DNA from: Thunnus maccoyii
Taxonomy: Eukaryota; Chordata; Actinopteri; Scombriformes; Scombridae
Length of the DNA: 64,000 bases
Assembly: GCF_910596095.1 (NCBI RefSeq)
Contig: NC_056544.1
Location: 12,943,155-13,007,154, forward strand
Direction: 5' to 3'
Part shown: piece by piece, positions 40,828 to 43,800 of the stretch
How the letters are laid out: every line of letters starts with the position of its first letter
How positions within the stretch are numbered: position 1 is the first letter of the stretch
The notes under the pieces: model-generated
Databases searched by the model: none
The model's input: the letters and a program-made list of their open reading frames with translations, nothing else
Told to the model about the DNA's origin: nothing
Program-made: the position numbers and the translations under genes

Positions 40828-43800
40828 ATGGATCAGGACTATGAGTGCAGGCTGCTCAGGCAGATAAACATCCAAAATGAGAATGCAAGCCCAATAGTAA
40901 GTAAATAATACACACCCTGCATTGCTTTGTCTGTTATGTTTGTTACTAGCATGTACAGAAGCTGCATTTCCTCTTGAACTGAAACTAAACATAAAGTTCC
41001 TTATCTAACTGTGGTTTCAAGTCTTGACAAGTATTACTAGTATCATGAGGTAATCATCCTAACTGTAGCATGATAATGGCCAGCAAAAGACTTAAGGTAG
41101 GTAGAAAAGGCGTGTTAGTCTCCATGTGTTAGAGGAATAAACGGTTTAACGGCACAGTCTCTTTCATTTGACGGTGTCATTAGTGTTGAGTGAAAACATG
41201 ACCTCACCAGCCCAATGACTGGGTTTTTGTGAATGTTGCCTCCTGTTGTTAACACCTCAAACAAATGCACCATCTGCCGCCTAAATGTTCTCCTGTTTTG
41301 TTATCGAGTTTTCTAGTCGCTGTCCAATGGCTTGTTTGTGTTTGGCTCCTGGTCAGAAATGGTTTCTCCTCTCCTCCTTTGTGCAGAAATCTTTAGGAGT
41401 GGTGCGAGCTCTGACACCCACCAGCTCCCCCTTGTCCTCCCCTAGCAAGCATGGCGATCGTTTCATTCCCTCCCGGGCCGGAGCCAACTGGAGTGTCAAC
41501 TTCCACCGCATCAATGTGAGTCTGCTGCAATACACCAGGGATATAAGTGTTACTCCTACCAAAAGGACAGTGTTCTCAAGATCGGAGTGTTGATTTATGG
41601 CTAATAAAGAAAAAAAACTAACCCTGTGCCTTTTATTTCAGTTTTTTTGTCTTGATGGTAAGTGTTTTAAGATTTGGTTGAGAATAATCATTTATTTATT
41701 TTATTTTCTGAAATAGGAAATTGAAAAGTCGCACAATCAAAACAGGAAAACCAAAGATGGCACAACAGACAGCAACAAAGGTAATTTTATATCATAATTT
41801 GATGTCTTGCAATATGTTGTGGATACACTGGCACTAATATCAAGAAAGATTCTGTTCTCAGACTGAGACTTACTTTACTGCAGACATCTGAATTCTAACT
41901 TGTTCTGCTTTCATTCAGCCATTTGTCAGTCACGACATTTAAGTGATGGATATACATGAATATAGCGCTGCTACAATTAGTTGATCAGTATTTTGTAAGT
42001 ATTTTGCTAATTGATTGATTGATTTAGTTCTTTTTTTAAAGCAAAAATGCCCCAAATTTGCTGGTTTCAGCCTCTCAAATGTGATGATTTAATGCTTTTC
42101 TTTCTCAAACATGACAGTAAACTGAAAATCTTTGGGTCAGACAAAACAAGACATCTGAAGATGATACCTTTGACTCTGGAAAAAAAATAACAGCCATTTT
42201 CACTATTTTCTGACAGTCTATAGACAAAATGATTAACCGAGAAAATATCGGCAGATTAATCATAACTGAAAATAGGACATACTGTAAGTAGTTGCAGCCC
42301 TACATGAGTACATATATTATTTTGTGTTAAAAACACTCTGGATGAAAGTACTTGATAATGCAGTGAATGCTTGGAGTTTATGGTTGATTCCTGTTTTAGA
42401 AAACATTTCACCATTTTAGAGGCGTATTTTTCTTTTCACTTTCACAGCTACTGTGATGTATTGAAGATGACTGCCTTGCAATATATTGTATATTGCAGAA
42501 TCACCTGTATTATAACACCTTATCGTAGGAGAATTATGATAGTAATGTATCTTGAGTTATCCTGTGATTCTCAGCCCAAAAAGAGATTAAAAAAAAAAAA
42601 GTCTTCTCTTCTGTAGCTGCACATTTGGCCCACGTCTTTTTTGGCTCATTTCCACAGGTATCTCTGTCTGTTCCAGTCAAACTTGATAATTTGACCTTCT
42701 CGTGTTTACTAAGTCTGGACAGGCTCATGGAAACTGGAGATAAGCGCTAAACAAAGCTCAGTGAGAAATTCTCCCTGATCTTTAGAGATGTGAGAGAGCT
42801 AAGAAATTGCAGAGGGAGCACAGTGTTTGAACTTAATCATTTCAGCAGCCCGGTTTGATTTCCCCTCTGTCTCTTCCTCTGTCTTCAGCGGACGGTCTGG
42901 CTTACTCAGCTCTGCTGAAGAACGAGCTGCTGGGGGCAGGCATCGAAAAAGTCCAGGACCCCCAGTCTGAAGACCGCCGCCTGCAGCCATCTACACCAGC
43001 CAAGAGGAGCCTTTTTAGTGTAAGAAATGTTAAAATAGCTGTAAATGTTAATGTATGAGTTTTATATGTTTTTTTTTTTGTTTTTTTTAAATCTGCATCA
43101 GTAATCATCTGCTTGTGTTTTGCAGTATTCTGTAAGTACTAAGAGGGCTCTTCCTGAAGAGGATGGAAACACAGTCTCTCCTTATTCTCTATCACCTGTC
43201 AGTAGCAACAGGTAATATTTTTTCCCTGTCATCACTTGAGTGTTATCTCTTCAACTGAGAAGACGACGTATCATATTCCTCATTATGTTGTCTTGTGCAT
43301 TGCAGCCAGAAACTGCTACGGTCGCCAAGGAAACCAACACGCAAAATTTCCAAAATTCCATTCAAAGTTCTGGACGCTCCAGAGCTTCAGGACGATTTCT
43401 ACCTCAACCTAGTCGACTGGTCCTCTCTGAATGTGCTCAGTGTTGGACTGGGTACCTGCGTATACCTGTGGAGTGCCTGCACCAGCCAGGTGTGTGTGTG
43501 TGTGTGTGTGTGTGTGTGTGTGTGTGTGTGTGTGTGTGTGTGTGTGTGTGTGTGTGTGTGTGTGTGTGTGTGTGTGTGTGTGTGTGTGTGTGTGTGTGTG
43601 TGTGTGTGTGTGTGTGTGTGTGTGTGTGTGTGTGAGAGATCTGTTGATTGAGTGTAGTGAGCAAACCTCCAGCTGTAAAAATATGTCTAAGAGTAAAAGG
43701 TTTAGACCTTTCTATTTGTCAGTTATGTTTCACTGGTTGAGCATCAAACATATTAGCTCATGTAAAAAAAAAAAAGGATTTAATTGGATGTACGTGCTAA

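Follow-up and report, generated by a model that had tools for sequence, protein, structure and literature searches.

A perfect (GT)72.5 array forms the 5′ splice site of fzr1 intron 6 in Thunnus maccoyii

We analyzed a 64,000-nucleotide stretch of the Thunnus maccoyii genome (C12:12943155-13007154, hereafter the window) that carries an fzr1 gene with 13 coding exons, numbered here so that exon 1 contains the start codon. The features on which the analysis turns are the following:

40828..46615, plus strand: coding part of fzr1, 13 exons encoding 496 amino acids (joined exons, alignment to human FZR1, Pfam)
43306..43489, plus strand: fzr1 coding exon 6, 184 nt, 3′ end CACCAGCCAG (same exon end in both paralogues)
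43490..43634, plus strand: perfect (GT)72.5 array, the first six bases of which form the 5′ splice site GTGTGT
43490..43824, plus strand: intron 6, GT-AG, 335 nt (gene model)
43797..43801, plus strand: best branch-point-like pentamer, CTAAT, whose A lies 24 nt upstream of the intron's 3′ end
43803..43822, plus strand: unremarkable polypyrimidine tract with 18 pyrimidines in 20 positions, then AG (sequence count)
43825..43890, plus strand: fzr1 coding exon 7, 66 nt, starting GTGACC (Val-Thr) and preceded by TTTTTAG

The 496-aa product aligns over its full length with human FZR1 (4ui9_R, residues 1-493, 1015 bits), and its residues 182-473 match the Pfam CDC20/Fizzy WD40 model. Across the exon 6/7 junction (ACTSQ/VTRL), the alignment to the human protein is unbroken and contains no insertion. 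On the low-coordinate side of fzr1, minus-strand open reading frames at 29140-30968 read like what we take to be exons of the splicing factor SF3A2. Open reading frames at 60103-60488 and 63672-63956, likewise on the minus strand, resemble an HSD11B1L-like short-chain dehydrogenase and a spindlin-like protein. A 35-base poly-T run at 47333-47367, located 3′ of the fzr1 stop codon, is probably in the 3′ untranslated region.

Tandem Repeats Finder delimits the array at 43490-43634 (145 nt, period 2, 100% match), and its first base is the first intron base after exon 6. The first-pass annotation had proposed that the GT array is itself the 5′ splice site after this exon, and the coordinates of exon and array, together with the unbroken protein, bear this out: a long GT run serving as splice donor is a real and unusual arrangement. 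Intron 6 has the attributes of a U2-type GT-AG intron, namely a GT donor with U1 complementarity, a polypyrimidine tract, and an AG acceptor, and judging from their sequence, the branch site and the polypyrimidine tract look normal.

Donor scores were calculated from a table of human donor frequencies, uncalibrated for the T. maccoyii genome, which they may not fit. On this scale, the first GT (CAG/GTGTGT) reaches 5.68 bits, ranking second among the 12 fzr1 donors (range 0.99 to 6.51) and ahead of every other GT scored from 43309 to 43820, whereas the later GTs stand at -1.8 bits, apart from three boundary variants from -3.42 to -0.59, so that the first GT leads almost all later ones by about 7.5 bits. 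The U1 duplex energy of the first GT is -9.6 kcal/mol, third of the 12 donors, compared with -3.6 kcal/mol for most later GTs; the value of -7.3 kcal/mol for the second GT probably results from the program sliding the pairing register, which may affect the energies of the later GTs. The array had been described as offering dozens of equivalent GT dinucleotides, a description that fails because the exon-side CAG singles out the first one. The first GT appears to be the strongest donor by a clear margin, which makes ordinary splicing the most likely result. Added together, the 71 later GTs carry 0.40 times the weight of the first GT, compared with 0.11 for an array of 20 units, and the sum rises with length; this is a naive model of drag that ignores position effects, not a measurement.

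Among the 71 later GTs, 23 are in frame, each in-frame step being 6 nt, and the two shifted frames hold 24 each. The earlier suggestion that the array can be read through without a stop in the frame of exon 6 was confirmed by translation, and the accompanying claim that choosing a later GT would insert Val-Cys repeats holds for the 23 in-frame GTs and fails for the 48 that shift the frame. After the smallest shifts, the stop is the second or the seventh codon past the exon's last Gln; in the larger shifts translated, Val-Cys units precede the same stops, which come within seven codons after the whole units. Eight donor choices were translated, and the rest follow from periodicity. Retention of the full intron allows translation to pass through the array and to end VC...ERSVD-stop, and skipping of exon 6 removes 184 nt and causes a frameshift. 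Transcripts with premature stops are expected to undergo nonsense-mediated decay; because shifted frames and retention meet stops, most errors would lead to transcripts that decay rather than to Val-Cys proteins.

The genome, searched over 782,140,779 bases in 54 contigs, holds at least three fzr1-like genes, the two others being located at C7:16164805-16168453 and C12:9119635-9122487. In both paralogues, the exon likewise ends CACCAGCCAG and the next exon starts GTAACA or GTGACA, but the donors at that intron are GTACTA and GTCAGA, and neither is followed by an array; in the C7 paralogue, a short CTGTGTGTGTATG stretch begins at position 13 of the intron. The intron position is thus common to all three copies and the array is limited to the one in the window. 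With at least three fzr1-like copies, loss from one may be buffered.

An exact search for (GT)72 returned 97 overlapping matches (86 forward, 11 reverse), which collapse to 16 arrays of at least 72 units, including that of fzr1, which accounts for a single match and is among the two shortest. The longest of the 16 perfect arrays, at C8:3493647, has about 107 units (36 overlapping matches). Extrapolating from the first 16 complete arrays, obtained from 97 of 212,105 overlapping (GT)20 matches, we estimate that some 35,000 arrays in the genome reach 20 units or more, which would place the fzr1 array near the longest 0.05%, a rough figure given the small sample. The fzr1 array is the only one of the 16 that is preceded by CAG: eight of the other 15 (C1-C9) are absent among the CAG(GT)20 matches listed, which cover C1-C9, and the remaining seven, on later contigs, start after other letters. 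An array of such length exactly on a donor appears very rare in the genome, and a special role is conceivable for that reason; as the locus was chosen for its oddity, no probability was put on coincidence.

Based on the observed anatomy, the continuity of the protein, the absence of the array from two paralogues, and the relative donor score (human table), we consider it probable, at roughly two chances in three (about 0.68), that the first GT (43490-43491) is the normal, constitutive donor of fzr1 intron 6 and that the array is a tolerated microsatellite exerting at most a modest, length-dependent drag. Several observations count toward this reading, namely that the full-length conserved reading frame requires exactly the exon 6/7 junction, that the first GT ranks second by score and third by U1 energy among the 12 donors, that the paralogues keep the intron position with array-free donors, and that the branch site and polypyrimidine tract are normal. 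U1 snRNP would read CAG/GTGTGT by pairing with the exonic CAG and with positions +1, +2, +3, +5, and +6, the sole mismatch being at +4. We infer constitutive use from this context and suggest that a short donor of the GTGTGT type, or a GT-rich intron start, was enlarged by replication slippage in one fzr1 copy; with the register set by the exon edge and an ordinary 3′ end, the intron would have remained functional. A longer array probably impedes splicing slightly and by degrees, to an extent that is a matter of estimate, through decoy U1 sites, UG-binding proteins, and possibly pUG quadruplexes, and the products of this drag would be mostly frameshifted or retained transcripts that then decay. 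The locus offers a natural test of how much repeat growth is tolerated on a donor, with a conserved exon, no CA partner, and two array-free paralogues as internal controls. If splicing proves length-dependent, a cell-cycle regulator carries a fast-mutating dosage dial; if it proves length-independent, this would reveal the strength with which pairing on the exon side holds the register.

Other readings of the array account less well for these data. Fish CA/UG bridged introns (Lin et al. 2016), which are U2AF2-independent according to the part of PMC12962679 available, resemble fzr1 intron 6 in having a long GT array at the 5′ boundary, and the genome is that of a fish; the part available of PMC9508853 mentions just structured zebrafish introns spliced without U2AF2. 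Bridged introns, however, carry a CA array at the 3′ boundary, and no complementary CA tract was found in the rest of intron 6, whose final 190 nt have AC/CA runs of at most three letters (CAC); the candidate membership was rejected on this ground. The tract of 18 pyrimidines in 20 before the AG would also speak against U2AF2-free splicing, and no inverted-repeat arm was reported in the array, which weighs little since the tool omits runs of short units. That intron 6 belongs to this class, with a lowered need for U2AF2, is hence scarcely credible, and without a CA partner the array is left free for UG-binding proteins and pUG folds. Simple repeats are error-prone in assembly, so the array length could be an artefact or a collapsed or expanded allele, with a much shorter array at the true donor, but the perfect 145 bp in a 54-contig, 782 Mb assembly and the occurrence of GT arrays of many lengths genome-wide, both indirect points, render this very improbable. 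We also regard as improbable a slippery donor at which U1 uses many GTs and yields a ladder of isoforms with (Val-Cys)n together with frameshifted products. The 6-nt in-frame steps and the decoy sum of 0.40 favor it, but the sum is naive as to position, nearly every later GT is some 7.5 bits weaker and lacks exon-side pairing, and two thirds of the products would be out of frame. Judging from general WD40 topology, the insertion point would lie near a turn between two strands of a propeller blade.

In 2012, Passoni reportedly described UG repeats near 5′ splice sites as TDP-43 targets. The (TG)m tract of CFTR intron 8 adjoins a 3′ splice site, whereas the fzr1 array is itself the donor. Both the CFTR and the fzr1 tract lie by a splice site of a conserved gene, and effects of CFTR tract length on splicing have been published, as stated in the available portion of PMC12276007. 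In the excerpts available, pUG repeats are overrepresented close to both kinds of human splice site, 5′ and 3′ (PMC12276007, PMC12697283), and TDP-43 prefers UG repeats (PMC12697283, PMC11163724); like the pUG repeats near 5′ splice sites and the TDP-43 targets treated in the first two of these sources, fzr1 has a GU repeat of more than 12 units at an intron 5′ end. The kind of arrangement, a GU repeat near a 5′ splice site, is thus already known, and the present case is a real and rare one: in fzr1 the intronic bases of the donor are part of the repeat itself, whose 72.5 units exceed the human pUG maximum of 61 repeats given in the same portion of PMC12276007. A published GT array forming a donor was not found in the titles or abstract openings among the papers listed.

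These parallels bear on a regulatory reading, in which TDP-43 or CELF proteins, or tandem pUG quadruplexes, would hide or expose the donor and Fzr1 dose would be set by array length or nuclear TDP-43 through skipping of exon 6 or retention. By analogy, control of intron 6 by TDP-43 or a pUG fold is possible. The repeat far exceeds the 11.5-12 consecutive GU repeats needed for a pUG fold (PMC12962679, as available in part), which is putative here, and exon 6 has a UG-rich tract next to its splice site, as do TDP-43-regulated exons, its own regulation likewise being putative. According to the part of PMC12276007 available, (GU)12 gives a stable quadruplex, with 12 repeats per fold and double or several folds in long repeats, and the fzr1 array has room for six such 12-repeat folds. 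No complementary CA tract occupies it, and stable ordinary pairing was rejected as a candidate (z +1.90; fold matched or exceeded in stability by 98 of 100 shuffled sequences), most of the array being single-stranded in a minimum-free-energy (MFE) model by a program not known to model pUG folds. However, folding in vitro has a half-life of at least 13 min (same portion of PMC12276007), slow beside co-transcriptional splicing, and the accessible text of PMC12697283, a preprint, holds that TDP-43 binding and the pUG fold are mutually exclusive, with TDP-43 kinetically favored at nuclear concentration; the array is also missing from both paralogues. We therefore consider such a switch unlikely, if worth keeping in view. 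We are more doubtful still of the proposal that the 72-repeat array, lacking a CA partner, places several pUG quadruplexes or a TDP-43 coat on the donor of an APC/C activator, so that array length and nuclear TDP-43 would set the share of productive fzr1 mRNA as a length-tuned rheostat differing between individuals.

We had initially expected GT-array donors to be common, which a sample of 91 of the 272 genomic CAG(GT)20 sites, read upstream, does not support, since it contains no other recognizable conserved exon, albeit at low sensitivity. The 272 matches compare with 118 for the mirrored control, and CAC(GT)20 gives 169 versus 262; flank counts vary too much for the CAG excess to be read as splice donors. 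In 57 of the 91 sites, the fzr1 site itself being outside the sample, a reading frame is open for 25 codons or more up to the CAG; these stretches give 85 peptides, 75 of which were scanned against Pfam after ten repeat-rich ones were dropped (three from L016, six from L044, and one from L076). Apart from fzr1 control exons, no convincing Pfam match pointing to a second conserved exon ending at CAG(GT)20 was found in the 75 peptides; the weak matches (SSRP1_C, 0.0035; DUF4731, 0.0071; Microp_apicomplexa_16, 0.014) are near chance for the number scanned. We infer that the WD40-type matches in one scan, five of them CDC20-Fz, are the 11 fzr1 control exons in that set, and on this assignment Pfam recovers six of the 12 fzr1 exons that were scanned out of the gene's 13. 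Sensitivity is thus poor, all the more since exons shorter than 25 codons may escape the scan altogether. The rough 95% bound of about 18 conserved-exon donors among the 272 CAG(GT)20 sites is probably too low for the same sites, and GT-array donors are likely rare in the genome. Resemblance between the flanks of some sampled sites suggests repeat families: seven CAG(GT)n sites at about 4.5-6.1 Mb of C2 (L019-L025) share flanks such as AAATGCAGTATACAG, as if belonging to an array-carrying repeat family, and L044 (C3:37305185-37309532) consists of minisatellite-like GT arrays with GCAGGTTCTGCTCAG-like spacers between them.
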